Assembly: GCF_000786205.1 (NCBI RefSeq)
Contig: NZ_JROH01000009.1
Span: 1 to 64,000 of the forward strand
DNA: 64,000 nt
Origin: Sphingomonas sp. 37zxx
GTDB lineage: Bacteria; Pseudomonadota; Alphaproteobacteria; Sphingomonadales; Sphingomonadaceae
Direction: 5' to 3'
Below, in pieces: positions 25,245 to 35,694 of the stretch. Under the pieces are notes generated by a model. It made no database searches. It saw nothing but the letters and a program-made list of their open reading frames with translations, and was not told the origin of the DNA. Position 1 is the stretch's first letter; every line of letters begins with the position of its first letter. The translations under genes and the position numbers were made by a program.

Positions 25245-26141
25245 GTGACGGTTCTGGCCATCACCGGCGGCACCGGCTTTGTCGGATCGCGGCTGATCAC
25301 CCAGGCGCTCGCCGATGGGCACAAAGTTCGAGCCCTAACCCGCCGCCCGCAACCGCCGCGCGAAGGCGTGACCTGGATCGAGGGCGCGCTCGATCGTCCG
25401 GGAACCCTGTGCGCCGGCGTCGATGCGGTGATCCATGTCGCGGGCGTGGTGAATGCCCGCGACCGCGCCGGGTTCGTCACAGGCAATATCGACGGCACCC
25501 GCACGATCCTCGACGCCGCCGCCTCGGCGGGGATCGAGCGTTTCATCCATGTGTCGTCCCTGGCCGCGCGCGAGCCCGACTTGTCGACCTATGGCTGGTC
25601 AAAGGCGCAGGGCGAAGCGCTGGTGCGCGCAAGCGACCGCGAATGGGATGTCGTGCGCCCGCCGGCGGTATACGGCCCCGGCGACATGGAGATGCGCGAA
25701 ATGTTCCGGCTGGCAACGCGCAGGGTGATGCCGCTGCCGCCACCGGGCAAGCTTTCGATCCTGCATGTCGATGATTTGGTGCGGCTGTTGCTGGCGCTAG
25801 TCCGAGTGAAGAGCGAACGCGCCACCTATGAAGTCGACGACGAAACCCCTGAAGCCTGGACGCATGAGAGCTTCGCGCGCGCGCTTGGCCAGGCGGTCGG
25901 CCAGCGGGTGATGCCGCTGTCGCTGCCGCGCCCGCTGCTTTCGTTTGCCGCAAAGATCGCGCGCGCCTTGCAGGGCGACGAGGCGAAGCTGACCCCCGAT
26001 CGCGTCGCATATTTCTGTCATCCCGACTGGACCGCCCACCCCGATCGCCGCCCGCCAGCGGCGCTGTGGCAGCCCCGGATCAGCGCCGCGCAGGGACTAC
26101 CGGCTACCGCCCAGTGGTATCGCGACAACGCCCTGCTATAG
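25245..26141 (+). CDS. cerR: NAD(P)-dependent epimerase/dehydrogenase, probable ceramide reductase (CerR-like)
   Basis: Extended SDR: Rossmann motif ITGGTGFVGSRL, active-site YGWSK (YxxxK) and the substrate strand RPPAVYGPGDMEMREMF. GTG 25245 fits best; the frame extends upstream into proB. In Caulobacter a gene of this family next to acp and spt encodes the reductase that reduces the keto group of the sphingoid base after N-acylation; identical neighbours here support the same role. No convincing signal peptide is seen, although CerR is reported to act in the periplasm. Generic epimerase remains possible. Confidence 0.7.
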   Translation: MTVLAITGGTGFVGSRLITQALADGHKVRALTRRPQPPREGVTWIEGALDRPGTLCAGVDAVIHVAGVVNARDRAGFVTGNIDGTRTILDAAASAGIERFIHVSSLAAREPDLSTYGWSKAQGEALVRASDREWDVVRPPAVYGPGDMEMREMFRLATRRVMPLPPPGKLSILHVDDLVRLLLALVRVKSERATYEVDDETPEAWTHESFARALGQAVGQRVMPLSLPRPLLSFAAKIARALQGDEAKLTPDRVAYFCHPDWTAHPDRRPPAALWQPRISAAQGLPATAQWYRDNALL

Positions 26142-26206
26142 CAGCGCCGAAAAGCCGCCGCATTTTGCTGGCAGGTCACTACGCAACCGTAACCAGAAAG
26201 CACCGA

Positions 26207-26449
26207 ATGTCCGACCGTCAGGCGATCTTCGACACCGTCACCGCCCAGATCGAACCCTTTAACAAAAAGGGCGTCGCGCTGGAGGAAGGCACCACCTTTG
26301 CCGGCGATCTCGAATGGGACAGCCTGACGGTGATGGATTTCGTCGCGGCGGTCGAGGATGAGTTCGACGTGCTGATCACGATGAACATGCAGGCCGAAAT
26401 CGAAACCGTGGGCCAGTTGGTCGATGCGGTGCAGAAGTTGAAGCAGTAA
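26207..26449 (+). CDS. acp: Acyl carrier protein of sphingolipid synthesis
   Basis: An 80-residue carrier protein with the phosphopantetheine site DLEWDSLTVMDF (Ser in DSL), starting MSDRQAIFDTVTAQI at ATG 26207. Immediately upstream of serine palmitoyltransferase, as in Caulobacter and other sphingolipid producers, where it probably delivers the acyl thioester. Separated from spt by an inverted-repeat element. Confidence 0.9.
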   Translation: MSDRQAIFDTVTAQIEPFNKKGVALEEGTTFAGDLEWDSLTVMDFVAAVEDEFDVLITMNMQAEIETVGQLVDAVQKLKQ

Positions 26450-26452
26450 CCA

Positions 26453-26572
26453 CCGTTCGTCCCAAATAGCCATTGAGCCTGTTGAAATGGCGTATCGAAG
26501 GACCGGGTCGTCTGGGGCGAGCTCCTTGGATACGGGTCTTCGACAAGCTCAGCCCCTACTCAGGACGAACGG
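26453..26572. repeat. Diverged inverted-repeat element between acp and spt
   Basis: Left arm (from CCGTTCGTCC at 26453) and right arm (ending CAGGACGAACGG at 26572) are imperfect inverted copies of about 50 bp, containing TTCGACAAGCTCAG-type sequence. Same family as 55846-56003. It inserts about 120 bp between co-functional genes and may affect transcript stability. Confidence 0.7.
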
Positions 26573-26589
26573 GCCAGGATGGATTTAAA

Positions 26590-27858
26590 ATGACCGAAGC
26601 CGCAACGATTGCCTATGCCCTGCCCGTCGAACCCGCGACCGCGCCGCCCGCGCGTGACCTGTTCAGCAAGTTCGACTCGCTGATCGCCGAGCGTGAGGCG
26701 CTGCTGGCCACCGGCGTGCGCGATCCGTTCGCGATCGTGATGGAGCGGGTCAAATCGCCGACCGAGGCGGTGATCCGGGGCAAGGACACCATCCTGCTTG
26801 GCACCTATAACTATATGGGCATGACCTTCGACCCCGACGTGATCGCGGCGGGCAAGGCCGCGCTCGATCAGTTCGGGTCGGGCACCAATGGCAGCAGGAT
26901 GCTCAACGGCACTTTCCGCGACCATGTCGATGCCGAGGAAGCGCTCAAGGAATTCTACGGTGCCGATCATGCGATGGTGTTTTCGACCGGCTATCAGGCG
27001 AACCTGGGCATCCTGTCGACGATCGCCACCAAGGGTGAGTACATCATCCTCGACGCCGACAGCCATGCGTCGATCTATGACGGCTGCGCGCTGGGCAATG
27101 CCGAAATCGTCCGCTTCCGCCACAATTCGGTCGAGGATCTCGACAAAAGGCTGGGCCGCCTGCCCGCCGATGCCGGCAAGTTGGTAGTGCTGGAGGGCGT
27201 GTATTCGATGCTCGGCGACATCGCCCCGCTTCGCGAAATGGTCGCGGTCGCGCGCAAGCACGGCGCGATGGTGCTGGTCGACGAAGCGCATTCGATGGGC
27301 TTTTTCGGCGAACATGGCCGCGGCGTATATGAAGAAGTCGGGCTCGAACTCGGCACCGATGTCGATTTCGTGATCGGCACCTTCTCGAAGTCGGTCGGTA
27401 CCGTCGGCGGTTTTTGCGTGTCGAACCATCCCAAGTTCGAAGTGATGCGGCTGTCGTGCCGGCCCTATATCTTCACCGCCTCGCTACCGCCCTCGGTGGT
27501 CGCGACCGCGGCGACTTCGATCCGCAAGCTGATGACCGCCGACAAGAAGCGCGCGCAATTGTGGGACAATGCCCGCACACTGCATGGCGGCCTGACCGAA
27601 ATGGGGTTCAAGCTTGGCACCGCGCAGCCCGATTCGGCGATCATCGCGATCATTCTGGAAGACCAGCAGCAAGCGGTGGTGATGTGGCAGGCGCTGTTGG
27701 AAGGCGGGCTGTACGTCAATATGGCGCGCCCGCCCGCGACGCCCGCCGGCACCTTCCTGCTGCGGTGCTCGCTATGCGCCGAGCACACGCCCGAACAGAT
27801 TGCGCGCGTGCTGGCGATGTTCGAGGCGGCGGGTCGTGCAGTGGGCGTGATCGACTGA
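26590..27858 (+). CDS. spt: Serine palmitoyltransferase
   Basis: PLP-dependent alpha-oxoamine synthase that condenses serine with palmitoyl thioester to 3-ketodihydrosphingosine. It closely matches the soluble sphingomonad enzyme as I recall it: SPTEAVIRGKDTILLGTYNY, GSGTNGSRMLNGTF, VDEAHSMGFFG, and the PLP-lysine motif GTFSKSVGTVGG. ATG 26590 gives 422 residues (MTEAATIAYALP...), the family length; the open frame upstream lies in the repeat element. Cytoplasmic. Confidence 0.96.
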   Translation: MTEAATIAYALPVEPATAPPARDLFSKFDSLIAEREALLATGVRDPFAIVMERVKSPTEAVIRGKDTILLGTYNYMGMTFDPDVIAAGKAALDQFGSGTNGSRMLNGTFRDHVDAEEALKEFYGADHAMVFSTGYQANLGILSTIATKGEYIILDADSHASIYDGCALGNAEIVRFRHNSVEDLDKRLGRLPADAGKLVVLEGVYSMLGDIAPLREMVAVARKHGAMVLVDEAHSMGFFGEHGRGVYEEVGLELGTDVDFVIGTFSKSVGTVGGFCVSNHPKFEVMRLSCRPYIFTASLPPSVVATAATSIRKLMTADKKRAQLWDNARTLHGGLTEMGFKLGTAQPDSAIIAIILEDQQQAVVMWQALLEGGLYVNMARPPATPAGTFLLRCSLCAEHTPEQIARVLAMFEAAGRAVGVID

Positions 27859-27966
27859 CCTTGTCGTTTCGCCAACGCGATCGGGGTGGATTTCGATACT
27901 GACGTCGTCGCCCGCTGTCGGTATAGCCGGGCGTTCACCCCGTAGCGAAAGCATGCTTTTCCCGAC

Positions 27967-29157
27967 ATGAAGTCGATCGACCGCTACATGGCACGCCTGA
28001 TCGCGGTGCCGCTGTTTTCGACGCTGGTGATCGCGGCGATGCTGCTGGTGCTCGACCGGATGCTTCGGTTGTTCGACTTCGTCGCGACCGAAGGCGGTCC
28101 GGTGAGCGTCGTTTGGAAGATGCTCGCCAATCTGCTGCCCGAATATCTGGGGCTCGGCATTCCGATCGGGCTGCTGCTGGGCATCCTGCTCGCCTTTCGC
28201 AAGCTTGCCGCTTCGTCCGAGCTCGATGTGCTGCAGGGCGTCGGGATGAGCTATTGGCGGCTGCTGCGCGTGCCGTATTTCTACACCATCGTGCTGGCGG
28301 CGATGAACCTGGCGATCGTCGGCTATGTCCAGCCGACCGCGCGCTATGCCTATGAGGAATTGCGCTTCGAGCTGCGATCGGGCGCGCTGGGCGCGTCGAT
28401 CAAGGTGGGGGAGTTCACCAGTTTCGGCCCCGACATGACGATGCGGATCGAGGAAAGCCGCGACAGCGGGCGTGACCTGTCAGGCATCTTCGTCAATTTC
28501 CGCGACAAGGAAGGCGGCTGGTACGCCGCATCGGCCGAAAAGGGCCAGTTCCTGGCGACCGACGATCCCAACACCATCCTGTTTCGCCTGACGCGCGGCA
28601 CGCTGGTGCATAATTCGCCGGGCTTTGTGCAGCCGCGCGTGCTGACCTTCACCAGCCATGACCTGCCGATCCCGCTGCCCGAATTCGGACGCTTCCGCGC
28701 GCGCGGCGACCGCAACCTCGAGCGCACCTTGCCCGAGCTGGTGCGGCTGGGCGGCGATGCCGGTGCCAGTGCCGAGCTTCGCAATACCAGCCGCGCGGCA
28801 TTCCATTTTCGCGTGGTCGAGGTGGTGACGATGTTCCTGCTGCCGCTGCTCGCGCTGGCGCTGGGCGTGCCAGCCAAGCGATCGAGTTCGGCGCTGGGCG
28901 TATTCCTGTCGATCGTGATGGTCGTCACCTATCACAAGGTGAACGAATATGGCGAAGCCGTCGGCGGCCTGGGTCGGATCGATCCGATCCTGGCGCTATG
29001 GGTGCCGTTTGCCGTCTTCGCCGCGCTGGTCGGCTGGATGTATTATCAAATCGCCTATGTCCCCGGCGGCCAGCCGATCGGCGGCCTGGAGCGGGTGGCG
29101 GGCCAGCTGGTGAAGGCGGTTACCAGCCGCCTGCCCGGCCGTCGCCGCGCCGCGTGA
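27967..29157 (+). CDS. lptF: LptF-type permease (YjgP/YjgQ family)
   Basis: 396 residues: N-terminal membrane helices (LIAVPLFSTLVIAAMLLVLD, YLGLGIPIGLLLGILLAF), a periplasmic beta-jellyroll (about residues 130-270) and three C-terminal helices (VVEVVTMFLLPLLALALGVP...). In the Lpt system LptF and LptG extract lipid from the inner membrane with LptB. It follows spt by 108 bp and is followed by its partner. In an organism expected to carry glycosphingolipids rather than LPS, the cargo may be a sphingolipid (inference). Confidence 0.85.
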   Translation: MKSIDRYMARLIAVPLFSTLVIAAMLLVLDRMLRLFDFVATEGGPVSVVWKMLANLLPEYLGLGIPIGLLLGILLAFRKLAASSELDVLQGVGMSYWRLLRVPYFYTIVLAAMNLAIVGYVQPTARYAYEELRFELRSGALGASIKVGEFTSFGPDMTMRIEESRDSGRDLSGIFVNFRDKEGGWYAASAEKGQFLATDDPNTILFRLTRGTLVHNSPGFVQPRVLTFTSHDLPIPLPEFGRFRARGDRNLERTLPELVRLGGDAGASAELRNTSRAAFHFRVVEVVTMFLLPLLALALGVPAKRSSSALGVFLSIVMVVTYHKVNEYGEAVGGLGRIDPILALWVPFAVFAALVGWMYYQIAYVPGGQPIGGLERVAGQLVKAVTSRLPGRRRAA

Positions 29158-29167
29158 GGAAGCCGAT

Positions 29168-30268
29168 ATGGCAATGAACATCTCTTTCTTTCCGTCGCAC
29201 ACCGTGTCGCTCTACATGGGCAAGATGTTCCTGGTGCGGACCTTCGCCATTCTGGCGGCGCTGGTGATGGTGTTGCAGGCGCTCGACCTGCTCAGCGAAA
29301 GCGGGCGAATCCTTGCCTATGAAGGCAATGGCCAGGCCGAGGTGTGGCGCTATGCGTCGATGCGGACGCCGCAGATCATCTCGCGCTTCCTGCCGTTTGC
29401 GGTGCTGCTGGGCACGATCATCACGCTTTCGACGCTGAACCAGAATAGCGAGATCATCTCGCTCAAGGCGGCGGGCCTGTCAGCGCATCAAGTGCTGGCG
29501 CCGCTGATCGTCACCGCGCTTGGCGTGGCGGCATTGTCGTTTGCGTTCAACGACCGGGTGGTCAGCCGCGCCACGGCGACGCTCAACGCCTGGGAGCGGG
29601 TCGATTTCGGGCCGATGCCGGTCGATCGCGGCGATCGGGCCAATATCTGGGTGCGCGAAGGCGACGATTTGGTGCAGGTGCGCGAAGTGCGCGGACGCGG
29701 CAACGCGGCGCAACTGACCGGCGTCAGCCAATATCAGCGCCAGGGCGGGTCGATCATTTCCGTCGTCACCGGCGAGCGCGGCGTGCGCGACGGCAATGGC
29801 TGGCGGCTGACCAACGCCACCCGTTTCGATGTAAAACGCGGCGAAGTCCGGCAATTGCCGTCGATCGTGATCGGGCGCGGCATCAGTCCCGATCAGTTCA
29901 CCCTGTCGTCGGTCGAGCCCGACGCGCTGTCGTTCGGCGCATTGAAGAGCGCGATCAGCGAACTCGCCCAGGCCGGACGCCCGACCAAGGCGCTGGAAGG
30001 CGCGCTGTGGCACAAGCTTTCGGGACCGCTTTCTTCGATCCTGATGCCGTTATTGGGCGCGGTCGCTGCGTTCGGGATCGCGCGATCGGGCAAATTATTC
30101 ATCCGCGCGGTGATCGGGATGGGGCTTGGCTTTGCCTATTTCGTCGCCGACAATTTCGCGCTGGCGATGGGCAATCTGGGTGCCTACCCCCCGTTCCTCG
30201 CCGCTTGGGCACCGTTCCTGCTGTTCTTTCTGATCGGCGAGGCAGTGCTGGTGCGGACCGAGGAATAA
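29168..30268 (+). CDS. lptG: LptG-type permease (YjgP/YjgQ family)
   Basis: 366 residues with the same topology as the preceding gene: helices at FLVRTFAILAALVMVLQALD and FLPFAVLLGTIITLSTLNQ, a periplasmic beta domain, and C-terminal helices (LSSILMPLLGAVAAFGIARS). GAGGAAG precedes ATG 29168; 10 bp after lptF, so clearly one transcription unit. Pairs with LptF as the inner-membrane half of a bridge transporter. Confidence 0.85.
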   Translation: MAMNISFFPSHTVSLYMGKMFLVRTFAILAALVMVLQALDLLSESGRILAYEGNGQAEVWRYASMRTPQIISRFLPFAVLLGTIITLSTLNQNSEIISLKAAGLSAHQVLAPLIVTALGVAALSFAFNDRVVSRATATLNAWERVDFGPMPVDRGDRANIWVREGDDLVQVREVRGRGNAAQLTGVSQYQRQGGSIISVVTGERGVRDGNGWRLTNATRFDVKRGEVRQLPSIVIGRGISPDQFTLSSVEPDALSFGALKSAISELAQAGRPTKALEGALWHKLSGPLSSILMPLLGAVAAFGIARSGKLFIRAVIGMGLGFAYFVADNFALAMGNLGAYPPFLAAWAPFLLFFLIGEAVLVRTEE

Positions 30269-30284
30269 TCCCCGGTCGCTTGGA

Positions 30285-31382
30285 TCACCGGGCGCGAAAC
30301 GTCCCGCGCACCAGCCGGGTAAGCAGACCCGGCAGCCCGGCATAGCTCGCCTTGTGATAGGGTGAATTGCCATCGAGTGCCGCAGACAGCCGGCGATGTG
30401 CCTCGCCCAGCGAATGATAGGGCAAGCCCGGCAACAGATGATGCAGGGCGTGATAGCGAAGCCCGACGGGTGCCCACAGCACGGGCAAGGTCGCAGGCGG
30501 CGGGACGTTGACCGAATCGAGATACTGCGCGGTCACCGACATTTCCTCGCCTTCATTCTCCCACAGATGCGCGACCAACGTTCGAACCTGGTTGATCGCC
30601 ATCATGCCCGAAATCGTCGCCAGCAGAATGACCAACGCCTTCACCGGCAGCACGCCGGTTGCGGTCGCCGCGATCAGCCCAGTCGCCCAGATGCTGGTCG
30701 CAATTTCAAGCTGCCACCAGCGGCGCATCGCTTCGCCCTCGGTCGGACGGCGGCGGAACTCGGGATTGATGCAAAGCGCCGAAAAGCGCGCCTCGACCGG
30801 CCGGCGAAGCGATGGCACCAGGATCGTCAGCGGCGTCAGCAGCGCATAGCGTACCAGGAAACCGATCGGTGCCAGCGCCGAGACCATCACGAACAGCGGC
30901 ACGCTCCACGGCTTCATGTGCGCCAGTGGCAGATATTCGGGGTCTTCAATCGTGCCATAGCGCGTCTTGGCATGGTGCAGGTTATGCACGCCCTCATAAG
31001 TGAACGAAGGTGCCATCAGCGGCACCCCGACCAGCGCATTCCACGCCAGGCGAAATCCGGGCAGGGCGGCATGCTTCATATGGCTGACTTCGTGGATGAA
31101 GCTGGCGGCGCGATACAGCGCCAGCACCGACACCAGCCACGACACGATCGCCCAATCCAGCGGCTCGATCAGGATCGCCCCGGCAAGCGCCGCGTAACCG
31201 ATGACGACCGACGCCAGCAGGTCGGCCCAATAGATCGCTGGACGCGGCGCGATCAAATCGCGCGTTAGTTCAGCAGCGGCGCGAAGCATCGCCCGGTCAT
31301 CGGCTATCTGGCCGCGCGGGGCAGATACCCGCGCCGAAACCGTACCGTCTGCTGCCAGCCGGTCGAGTGAGAAGCTATTCAT
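30285..31382 (-). CDS. Membrane fatty acid desaturase family protein
   Basis: Three histidine boxes typical of membrane di-iron desaturases/hydroxylases: HEVSH, HNLHH and HALHH, between hydrophobic helices. ATG 31382 (MNSFSLDRLAADG) has GAAGAG 5-6 bp upstream; ATG 31394 and the frame up to 31424 are alternatives. It sits between lptG and the candidate ceramide synthase on the opposite strand, so it may modify the sphingoid base or its acyl chain; ordinary phospholipid desaturation is equally possible. Confidence 0.85.
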   Translation of the reverse strand: MNSFSLDRLAADGTVSARVSAPRGQIADDRAMLRAAAELTRDLIAPRPAIYWADLLASVVIGYAALAGAILIEPLDWAIVSWLVSVLALYRAASFIHEVSHMKHAALPGFRLAWNALVGVPLMAPSFTYEGVHNLHHAKTRYGTIEDPEYLPLAHMKPWSVPLFVMVSALAPIGFLVRYALLTPLTILVPSLRRPVEARFSALCINPEFRRRPTEGEAMRRWWQLEIATSIWATGLIAATATGVLPVKALVILLATISGMMAINQVRTLVAHLWENEGEEMSVTAQYLDSVNVPPPATLPVLWAPVGLRYHALHHLLPGLPYHSLGEAHRRLSAALDGNSPYHKASYAGLPGLLTRLVRGTFRAR

Positions 31383-31467
31383 GATGCTCTTCATTACCGG
31401 CAGATAGTGGCAGTATATGGGCATTCAATAAGTTGACATCGCCCAGCCGACGCGGGACGAGGTCCGC

Positions 31468-32613
31468 ATGATCGCCATTCGCCCCGTCGCCACCCGCGCT
31501 GACCGCGCCAAATTCATCGACATCGCCTATCGGCTGAACGCGCATGATCCCAACTGGATCGCCCCCCTCCGCTCCGAAGTAGCCGAAACGATCAACCCCG
31601 CCAAAAACGGCTGGTTCAGCCATGCCGAGGGTCAATTGTTTCTCGCCGAGCGCGACGGCGAGGTCGTCGGGCGCATTTCGGCGCATGTCGATACGTTGGC
31701 GCTCACCATGCCCGCCGACAAGGGTTTCGGACCGGGTGCCGGCCAATGGGGACTGCTGGAGGCCGAGGACGAATCAGTCGCACACGCGCTGATCGCCACC
31801 GCCGAAACCTGGCTCCGCAATCGCGGGCTAAACCGCGCGCTGGGGCCGATCAGCCTGTCGATCTGGGAACAGCCGGGCCTGCTGATCGAGGGATTTGATC
31901 ATCCCCCCACGGTGATGATGGGTCATAATCTGGCCGAACAGCGTGGCTGGATCGAACGGGCGGGCTACACACCGGCCAAGCAACTGGTCACCTATGACCT
32001 CGACATCGTCCCCGACTTTCCCCCGATCGTCCAACGGATCGTGGCGGCGGGCGAGAAGAACCAGCGGATCGTCATTCGGCGAGTCGATAAATCGCGCTTC
32101 GACGAAGATGCCGCGATCATCCTGGCCATCTTGAACGACGCCTGGCGCGACAATTGGGGGTATGTGCCGCTAACCCCGCCCGAAATCGCCGATGTCGGGC
32201 GCAAGCTGAAGCCGATCGTGTTCGAAGATCTGATCCGAATTGCCGAGGTCGATGGCGAGCCGGTAGCGTTCCTGATCACCCTGCCCGACCTTAACGAAGC
32301 GATCGCGCCGCTCAAGGGCAACCTTTTTCCCTTCGGCTGGGCAAAACTGCTGTGGTGGCTGCGCGCGCCGCAATGCCGGACGGTTCGCGTGCCGCTGATG
32401 GGCGTCGTCAAGCGGTTGCAGGCGTCGCGCATGGCGAGCCAATTGGCGTTCATGATGATCGAATATGTGCGCCGCGACACCATCGCCAAATTCGGCGCGA
32501 CTCGCGGCGAGATCGGCTGGATCCTCGACGACAATCAGGGAATGATCGCCATCGCCGATGCGATCCAGGCCAGGATTAATCGCCGCTACACGATTTACGA
32601 ACGAACCTTGTAA
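31468..32613 (+). CDS. bcerS: GNAT-fold acyltransferase, candidate bacterial ceramide synthase (bCerS-like)
   Basis: 381 residues: TRADRAKFIDIAYRLNAHDP, GQLFLAERDGEVVGRISAHV, GLLEAEDESVAHALIATAE, and a C-terminal second acyltransferase-like half with VAFLITLPDLNEAI. This architecture belongs to the GNAT family containing Caulobacter bacterial ceramide synthase, often annotated as N-acetyltransferase or dATP pyrophosphohydrolase. The enzyme would N-acylate 3-ketosphinganine. Clustering with spt, acp and the reductase supports it; family members without this role exist. Confidence 0.65.
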   Translation: MIAIRPVATRADRAKFIDIAYRLNAHDPNWIAPLRSEVAETINPAKNGWFSHAEGQLFLAERDGEVVGRISAHVDTLALTMPADKGFGPGAGQWGLLEAEDESVAHALIATAETWLRNRGLNRALGPISLSIWEQPGLLIEGFDHPPTVMMGHNLAEQRGWIERAGYTPAKQLVTYDLDIVPDFPPIVQRIVAAGEKNQRIVIRRVDKSRFDEDAAIILAILNDAWRDNWGYVPLTPPEIADVGRKLKPIVFEDLIRIAEVDGEPVAFLITLPDLNEAIAPLKGNLFPFGWAKLLWWLRAPQCRTVRVPLMGVVKRLQASRMASQLAFMMIEYVRRDTIAKFGATRGEIGWILDDNQGMIAIADAIQARINRRYTIYERTL

Positions 32614-34260: not shown

Positions 34261-35433
34261 TCACTTCGCCAGAGGTCCGCCGACGCTGGCCTGCTGCCGC
34301 AGTGCCTTGTCCTGCGATGCCAGCAACGTGTCGGCGCTTTGCATATAAGGCATCGGATTGACCGGGCGACCATCGATTCGGACTTCATAATGCAGGTGGC
34401 TGCCGGTCGAACGGCCGGTCGAACCCATCAGGCCGATCAGCTGGCCGCGCTTAACGCGGGTGTTGTCCGACACGATCAGGCGCGACAAATGGCCATAGCG
34501 CGTCTGAATCCCCTTGCCGTGATTAATCTCGACCAGATTGCCATAGGCACCCACCCGCTTGGACCGGCTGACGACGCCGTCCGCAGTCGCATAGACCGGC
34601 GTTCCCACGGGACCAGGAATATCGAGCCCGGCGTGCATCACGGCGGTGCCCCGAAACGGGTCTGAGCGGATGCCGAAGCTGGACGTCAAAGTGAGGTTCT
34701 CAACCGGCTGGAGCGACGGGATCGCGATCACTGCTTGCTCGAGCGTGTCGAGTTTTTTCCAGCTTTGGAATAGTGAACGGAACTGTGCGTCGGCATTGGG
34801 CTCGACTGCGGTCTCTGCTTCGCGATCGAGTGGCTCGAACGGGCCACCCATTGCCAGGCCGGCCTTTGACAGAATGCGTTCGGGGCGCAAGCCCAAGCGG
34901 CGCAGATGCTTTTCGGTGGCGACAATGCGCTGCTGCGCGGTGATGCGCGCCTGGATGGCGAAGGCGACTTGCTGGTTCTCGAGCCGGCGGAGGGGGGCGA
35001 CGATCGAGGCGGCAGCGGGATTGGCGGGAATTTCGGCGAGGGCGGCGAGTTCCTGGGGTTCGCCCTGCCCGCTCAATACCGAAGCGATCAGTATCTGGCG
35101 CTGCTCCAGCTGAGCGGCATGCAATTCGGCGGTCTCTTTGACCGAAGCGATGTCGGCGCGCATCCGGGCGACTTCGGCTTCCATCTGCACCAGATCGGTA
35201 TCGACAGCGGCGAAACCGCTGGTTTCCAATGCGCCATCGACCGTTTGCGCGACACCCAGGGCCGAGAAGGTCAGCGTGACCGCGGCAACCCCGGCCATCA
35301 TCGCCTGCGTACGGGCGGTGATCGAAACGCGGCGGAGAGTGCGGCCATCGTGGAGGATGAATTCACGGTTGGTGAAAAAGCTTCGGAACCTGTCTGACAG
35401 GCCATCGTTCTTGCAATTGGAAAGACTGCTCAT
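34261..35433 (-). CDS. M23 family metallopeptidase (LytM domain), membrane-anchored
   Basis: An N-terminal cytoplasmic segment, one membrane helix (MMAGVAAVTLTFSALGVAQ, about residues 45-63), a coiled coil (VQMEAEVARMRADIASVKET) and a C-terminal LytM domain with zinc ligands in HAGLDIPGPVGTPV and GSHLHYEVRIDG plus RYGHLS. Likely a periplasmic peptidoglycan endopeptidase or EnvC-like activator. ATG 35433 chosen over 35457. The 261 bp upstream to bcp show no gene. Confidence 0.88.
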   Translation of the reverse strand: MSSLSNCKNDGLSDRFRSFFTNREFILHDGRTLRRVSITARTQAMMAGVAAVTLTFSALGVAQTVDGALETSGFAAVDTDLVQMEAEVARMRADIASVKETAELHAAQLEQRQILIASVLSGQGEPQELAALAEIPANPAAASIVAPLRRLENQQVAFAIQARITAQQRIVATEKHLRRLGLRPERILSKAGLAMGGPFEPLDREAETAVEPNADAQFRSLFQSWKKLDTLEQAVIAIPSLQPVENLTLTSSFGIRSDPFRGTAVMHAGLDIPGPVGTPVYATADGVVSRSKRVGAYGNLVEINHGKGIQTRYGHLSRLIVSDNTRVKRGQLIGLMGSTGRSTGSHLHYEVRIDGRPVNPMPYMQSADTLLASQDKALRQQASVGGPLAK

Positions 35434-35694
35434 AATGCCCCGGCGACCATGGTTCACGACGCCGTTATGACGTTCGCGACAAGTTCGTCACGATCGCAGC
35501 CCCTCCGCGCCCTGACGATTTGGTTGTGCGTAAACCATGGTTGTACAGCAATAGCGGCGCGGCGGTTCCGCGCTGGACCGGGTTGGTCGCGGGTTGAGTC
35601 GTTGAACCCGTGGTTAACCATTCGTAAAAATCAGCCGCACCCGGCAAATTTTTCCGCTTATTTCGCAGAATCACGACTCTGCAATCGTTACCGA

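Follow-up and report, generated by a model that had tools for sequence, protein, structure and literature searches.

The cluster at positions 25245-32613 of a 64,000-nucleotide stretch of Sphingomonas sp. 37zxx DNA (contig NZ_JROH01000009.1, positions 1 to 64,000; here termed the window) carries an lptF-lptG permease pair among genes of sphingolipid synthesis, and the comparative analysis reported here makes it likely that this pair is a sphingolipid-dedicated LptFG feeding a retained Lpt bridge, its cargo, direction of transport and use of the bridge being deduced from sequence comparisons. The original prediction, made from the letters of the window, had read these permeases as an extraction machine for sphingolipids, and this reading is supported by gene content, clade membership, copy number and neighbourhood correlations. 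Its further statement that such a transport role was not established is right as regards experiments; the idea itself, however, has been published for Caulobacter (PMC11324152), and the role is an existing proposal rather than a new one. What is new here is the pattern of copy number, the split into clades, the case of an organism apparently free of lipopolysaccharide (LPS) and an apparent second origin.

The spt-linked permease genes, lptF (27967-29157, forward strand) and lptG (29168-30268, forward strand), encode LptF2-like and LptG2-like proteins that match PF03739 and belong to the spt-linked clade described below. LptF barely exceeds the TIGR04407 cut-off (231.4 bits, cut-off 230), and LptG scores 298.6 bits with TIGR04408 (cut-off 240) and matches PDB LptG chains with E-values down to 3.3e-28. 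They form the only PF03739 pair in the genome. LpxC is the committed enzyme of lipid A synthesis, and no match to it was found in the 147 genomes sampled from the order, this one included; as a control, the LpxC search was run on 14 genomes and gave a match in four, including E. coli and Caulobacter. The original prediction would have been refuted had this been the only lptFG of an LPS producer: the pair is indeed the only one, but the missing LpxC speaks against an LPS producer. LptA, B, C, D, F and G are all present, with lptC, lptA, lptB and rpoN following one another and lptD on a separate contig; LptA passes the Pfam cut-off and stays under that of NCBIfam (52.9 versus 71.7), and LptD reaches 208.8 bits with PF04453 and only 67 bits with the NCBIfam LptD models (cut-off 683). 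The same picture emerges from the order sample, in which LptFG is found in 145 of the 147 genomes (130 with exactly two PF03739 matches, 15 with more), LptD in all 147 and a strong serine palmitoyltransferase (Spt) match in 146, the remaining genome (G013) having a weak relative only. Since LpxC is missing while the Lpt genes are present, the Lpt machine appears to have outlasted LPS synthesis. No sampled family of the order (codes f2-f7) yielded an LpxC match, so that the family of the window is not special in this respect and the loss of LPS in the order may be old.

Across the sampled Alphaproteobacteria, the number of LptFG pairs tracks the lipid classes of the cell. In a class-wide draw of 143 genomes, a true Spt (more than 430 bits, the next best match scoring 263) was identified in 24, and LpxC was missing in 23 (20 listed as such and three, G263, G269 and G271, deduced from the match list). 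All seven genomes with both LpxC and Spt, here termed dual, have four LptF/G (PF03739) matches, as against two in 104 of the 113 genomes with LpxC and no Spt (LPS-only; the rest comprise G158 with four, three genomes with three, four with one and one with none). Genomes with Spt and no LpxC (Spt-only) have two matches in 16 of 17 cases and none in the other, and those with neither gene have no match in four cases out of six and two matches in the other two. For four or more matches, the comparison of 7/7 dual with 1/113 LPS-only genomes yields p 1.3e-10 in a Fisher test uncorrected for kinship. A second sample comprised 35 further Spt genomes from outside the order (in G304 the Spt is cut off and scores only 363 bits). 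Here, 13 of 13 genomes with LpxC have four or more matches (twelve with four, one with six), and the 22 without LpxC include 13 with two matches over the cut-off (two of them with an extra match below it), two with four, one with a single match at a contig end and six with none. Pooling both samples gives 20 dual genomes from 11 family codes, every one of them with two or more LptFG pairs, and 39 Spt-only genomes from 13 family codes, with one pair in 29, none in seven and some other number in three. In all six families sampled for both dual and LPS-only genomes (f15, f25, f37, f43, f45 and f100) it is the dual genome that has more matches, by four to three in f100. The co-occurrence of an lptFG pair with spt across LPS-free genomes, which the original prediction put forward as a check, is thus favourable in both samples.

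Phylogeny separates the pairs along the same line. A tree of 91 concatenated LptF and LptG pairs was obtained by a short search, drawing on 19 of the 20 dual genomes (G403 was not fetched), 19 of the 113 LPS-only genomes, 29 LpxC-negative genomes with Spt and Sphingomonas parapaucimobilis; five single-domain loci were omitted, namely L182-L185 (G160 and G176, in which lptF and lptG lie apart) and L193. One clade, with a Shimodaira-Hasegawa-like approximate likelihood ratio test (SH-aLRT) value of 100, unites 38 LPS-type pairs, 19 from LPS-only and 19 from dual genomes. Another, the spt-linked clade (48 pairs, SH-aLRT 99), includes the window pair, all 32 sampled pairs of Spt-only genomes (counting S. 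parapaucimobilis, in which LpxC was not tested) and the second pair of 16 dual genomes; no pair of the 32 from Spt-only genomes falls in the LPS clade. In three more dual genomes the spt-linked pair belongs to a small divergent group that also includes a third pair of G518. Gene neighbours agree with this partition, for spt or cerS lies in the fetched stretch of 45 of the 48 spt-linked-clade pairs, and lptD adjoins 32 of the 38 LPS-clade pairs and none of the 48 spt-linked ones within the fetched stretches. A second, very divergent LptFG pair was also observed in G158 (L181), a genome with LpxC and no true Spt, near a relative of Spt dependent on pyridoxal phosphate; it sits on a long branch outside the main clades.

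Lack of a conserved neighbourhood of lptFG and spt would also have refuted the original prediction; its conservation proves widespread and yet not universal. Among 80 Spt loci from titled genome records, the best 80 of 585 confirmed matches, LptFG-like genes occur in 50, and in 31 of the 38 loci spanning 21 kb or more. By our own estimate, made without a shuffled control, a single pair would rarely lie so near spt by chance in a genome of a few Mb (about 0.5%). Within the order, distances were counted in 135 of the 147 genomes, ten lacking listed LptFG places and two lacking LptFG, and spt lies within 20 kb of lptFG in 12/12 genomes of the genus, 46/95 of the family (genus included) and 39/40 of the other families. 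Outside the order, a pair was located in 27 Spt-only genomes and lies no more than 15 kb from spt in 21 of them (far off on the same contig in two, on different contigs in four); among the 20 dual genomes the same holds for 15 (one far, four on different contigs). The genes are far apart on one contig in G296, G511 (364 kb) and G309, and on different contigs in G203, G226, G248, G292, G365, G436, G446 and G476; the near tallies include G304 and G407, and the pairs of G194 and G271 are not listed. In G011, the only fully read locus of the family with spt elsewhere, lptFG still stands with cerS and the desaturase gene. Because the window pair is sited among sphingolipid genes, and in a branch that tracks these rather than LPS genes, it probably exports sphingolipids.

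If dual genomes run two permease pairs, the periplasmic and outer membrane parts seem to be held in common. A search for the N-terminal domain of LptA/LptD in 18 dual genomes returned a single long open reading frame (ORF; 700 aa or more) in 15 and none in three, in one of which (G493) lptD does adjoin the LPS-type pair. One shorter LptA-like ORF was found in 18/18, and two LptA-like or two lptD-like ORFs in 0/18. As no dual genome shows two of either, both pairs probably share LptA and LptD. Docking of LptB can be approached through E84 of E. coli LptF and E88 of LptG, which we take to be the coupling-helix glutamates involved. Equivalents of E84 are kept in 100/100 sequences and those of E88 in 96/100, as docking would need. 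On the cargo side, the sfLptB2FG structure places LptG K40 in contact with the 4'-phosphate of LPS and K41 with its inner core (PMC6744409). The equivalents of both residues are basic in 18/21 LPS-type pairs, versus 0/56 alphaproteobacterial and 0/23 other spt-linked pairs. An acidic-basic pair at positions 29-30 of E. coli LptF (D30-R31 in the window protein) is found in 54/56 alphaproteobacterial spt-linked pairs, 0/21 LPS-type pairs and 0/23 other spt-linked pairs, and is a marker noticed after the fact.

The most obvious alternative is that the pair is an ordinary LPS exporter that chances to adjoin spt. Both proteins do pass the curated thresholds of the LPS-export LptF and LptG models, but the genome has no LpxC match and the pair is no member of the clade in which the sampled LPS-type pairs group, 19 from LPS-only and 19 from dual genomes. 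On the missing LpxC and the position in the tree we reject ordinary LPS export, which we regard as extremely improbable. It is also conceivable, although unlikely, that the cargo is some other surface lipid or a lipid-linked glycan, such as a hopanoid, a sphingan or a capsule anchor, and that the pair stands beside spt only as both serve the outer membrane. Lpt systems carry glycolipids, which suits this proposal, but the pair occurs along with Spt across many family codes, usually next to cerS and spt. Finally, the pair might have become a general outer membrane lipid pump after the loss of LPS, with sphingolipid as one of several cargoes. Its being the sole LptFG in a cell without LpxC is what one would expect of such a pump; dual genomes, however, which still have LpxC, carry an spt-linked pair besides their LPS pair, which suits a dedicated cargo and leaves the general pump very unlikely.

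Several observations weigh against a sphingolipid-dedicated LptFG, or at least against a strict form of it. The support for a sphingolipid cargo is correlation only, drawn from genome comparisons, and LPS synthesis was judged by LpxC alone. The window LptG retains an Arg at the second of the K40/K41 positions. Charge is in any case a weak guide to cargo, since K34, R133 and R136 of LptG, tried as cargo markers and dropped, are acidic in most alphaproteobacterial LPS-type LptG. In about half of its own family, spt is not near lptFG. The copy-number rule is not strict either, given the 15 of 147 order genomes with more than two PF03739 matches and two Spt-only genomes of family f29 with two pairs. 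Nor is Spt always accompanied by LptFG. Six Spt-positive, LpxC-negative genomes of genus g92 have no match to LptFG or to the LptA/LptD N-terminal domain (PF04453 was not searched there), and in G464, LptA and LptD gave matches and LptFG gave none. The g92 genomes suggest that sphingolipid cells without an Lpt machine exist; in two of their spt loci (L190 and L191, from G186 and G373), no transporter was recognized among the 10 proteins tested. Those two loci contain an AMP-binding enzyme, CerR, AcpR, Spt, a metallophosphoesterase and CerS. G464 (L192) is LpxC-negative and has two spt genes in tandem. In the two f29 genomes (G365 and G449; L137 and L172), which are Spt-only, the second pair belongs to the spt-linked clade and adjoins a ceramide synthase homologue, so that two sphingolipid classes are perhaps present.

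Under the sphingolipid-dedicated reading, the candidate ceramide synthase next to the pair would make ceramide, the desaturase would probably modify the acyl or the long-chain-base part of it within the family of the window, and the sphingolipid-type LptFG would hand the sphingolipid to the kept LptA/B/C/D bridge. More broadly, and with somewhat better than even confidence, we propose that Lpt is a cargo-swappable machine with one LptA/LptD bridge and one LptFG pair per exported lipid class, that is, two in cells with LPS and sphingolipid. Where LPS was lost, apparently independently in several families, the lptD-linked LPS pair would have gone with it, the spt-linked pair and the bridge staying behind, and recruitment to sphingolipid loci would have occurred at least twice, one recruitment being alphaproteobacterial and another belonging to a lineage closer to E. 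coli LptFG. Separate losses of LPS are suggested, on a basis that includes no species tree, by families that mix lipid classes, f21 and f62 with one LPS-only and one Spt-only genome each and f27 with dual and Spt-only genomes. If the window pair is indeed the sphingolipid exporter, this accounts for the way in which sphingomonads assemble an LPS-free outer membrane, implies that LptFG sets the cargo of a shared bridge and supplies a genomic marker for sphingolipid outer membranes.

The two recruitments rest on a second tree, again from a short search, to which the titled loci were added (named loci with one or short LptFG domains were omitted). Caulobacter sp. AP07 and two Phenylobacterium pairs join the window in the spt-linked clade (99), with the Sphingomonas montana pair placed near that of the window, and the spt-linked pairs of Pseudomonas, Serratia, Nitrospirales and others join E. 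coli LptFG together with the divergent group (100). A single origin of all spt-linked pairs was rejected by the approximately unbiased (AU) test on 35 rows (p 1.6e-6), with E. coli as its sole gammaproteobacterial LPS row and with groups defined once the first tree had been viewed. As the test rejects one clade for all of them, the result suggests that LptFG was recruited into sphingolipid loci on two occasions. A. vinelandii and P. luteola, both gammaproteobacteria, have been suggested to have acquired the cluster from alphaproteobacteria (PMC11324152); both species lie outside our two trees. Most sampled gammaproteobacterial spt-linked LptFG fall outside the alphaproteobacterial clade, although the Solimonas marina pair is inside it, and two recruitments would argue against the idea that most gammaproteobacteria simply received the transport genes from alphaproteobacteria.

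Every other gene named in the original prediction is likewise present in the cluster. It opens with a short-chain dehydrogenase/reductase (SDR) gene of the CerR type (25245-26141, forward strand, GTG start at 25245), whose product resembles NAD-dependent epimerases (PF01370, 83.2 bits). SDR homologues precede acpR-spt in many Spt loci, including that of Caulobacter sp. AP07, and from this synteny we infer that the protein is a ketosphinganine reductase. Directly 5' of spt lies a gene for a dedicated acyl carrier protein of the AcpR type (26207-26449, forward strand; PF00550, 34.6 bits, with a DSL motif in its translation); the function of AcpR has been demonstrated in other species (PMC9386255). 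The spt gene (26590-27858, forward strand) can be identified firmly from its sequence matches, with 833.5 bits against NF047603 (cut-off 670) and 747.5 bits against PDB 2jg2, titled serine palmitoyltransferase; as the latter match begins at residue 24 of the frame tested, the ATG at 26590 is suggested as the start.

Convergent to lptG, a membrane fatty-acid desaturase/hydroxylase gene of DesA-like type (30285-31424, reverse strand) encodes a protein with the histidine boxes HEVSH, HNLHH and HALHH (PF00487, 86.6 bits). A fold search returned at E < 0.001 only chains of chloroplast Ycf2/Orf2971-FtsHi complexes, which are of no use in assigning its type. It adjoins lptFG in 23 of 32 order loci (the best-scoring 32, with about 1.5 kb of flank each), and in a wider locus set it was seen in three loci of the family and, outside the family, only in G192; the desaturase is mainly a feature of the family of the window. 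Another DesA-type protein, Caulobacter CC_0202, has been reported to hydroxylate the amide-linked chain (cited in PMC11324152). The last gene (31468-32613, forward strand) encodes a tandem-GNAT protein with a marginal PF00583 score (21.6 bits only); NCBIfam gave no match, nor did PDB sequences up to E 1. Its confident AlphaFold2 model (m840b4f857c16; mean predicted local distance difference test score 93.9) has the tandem GNAT protein 7q3a as best PDB match (E 1.7e-14), and a tandem-GNAT homologue lies within 55 of the 80 titled Spt loci and adjoins lptFG in many loci. Both the modelled GNAT fold and the conserved place in Spt loci make it a candidate bacterial ceramide synthase (CerS).

Downstream of the cluster, the window carries an M23 peptidase gene (34261-35457). 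Relatives place the genome among the sphingomonads: over 93% of its length the window cluster is 73.8% identical in DNA to that of S. parapaucimobilis, and S. montana lies nearby in the second tree. In S. parapaucimobilis, the same cluster is found with rplU, rpmA, obgE and proB on a 385 kb replicon deposited as a plasmid (NZ_CP155753; L004), and the presence of these genes suggests that this replicon may be a chromid or a misassigned piece of chromosome.

The window cluster shares its acpR-spt order with the rhodobacterial AcpR-Spt-CerR-CerS pathway, and aasR lies outside it, matching what is reported for the Sphingomonadaceae (PMC9386255); it differs from the rhodobacterial ceramide cluster in holding the permease pair and the desaturase gene. 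Compared with the E. coli LptB2FGC-A-DE exporter of LPS, the genome has the same families A, B, C, D, F and G and the coupling glutamates are kept, but LpxC is lacking, LptFG belongs to another clade and positions 40/41 of LptG in spt-linked pairs are mostly not basic. In the open literature searched, which leaves aside subscription papers and preprints, PMC11324152 was the only paper found to propose a sphingolipid-linked LptFG, and a paper on Brucella Lpt (PMC9938171) mentions neither 'ceramide' nor 'sphingolipid'. In Caulobacter, LptC2, LptF2 and LptG2 (CC_1168, CC_1156 and CC_1155, in the sphingolipid region CC_1168-CC_1152) were proposed in 2024 to take part in the movement of phosphosphingolipids, in the manner known for LPS, and orthologues of these second Lpt versions were listed for S. 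wittichii and Z. mobilis (PMC11324152). Mutants in CC_1156, which is LptF2 by the order given, show a cofitness of 0.60 with a CC_1159 sphingolipid mutant, and according to the same paper it is not known how sphingolipids get from the inner membrane to the outer one, transport not being investigated there (PMC11324152). Unlike Caulobacter, which has LpxC and, from the wording 'second versions', another pair, the genome of the window has a sole pair and no LpxC; in its cluster no LptC2, flippase or phosphoglycerate gene was identified, and the desaturase gene lies between lptG and cerS. In both organisms, nonetheless, the pair stands in an spt/cerS region, and the second tree groups the window pair in one clade with the Spt-locus pair of Caulobacter sp. 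AP07.

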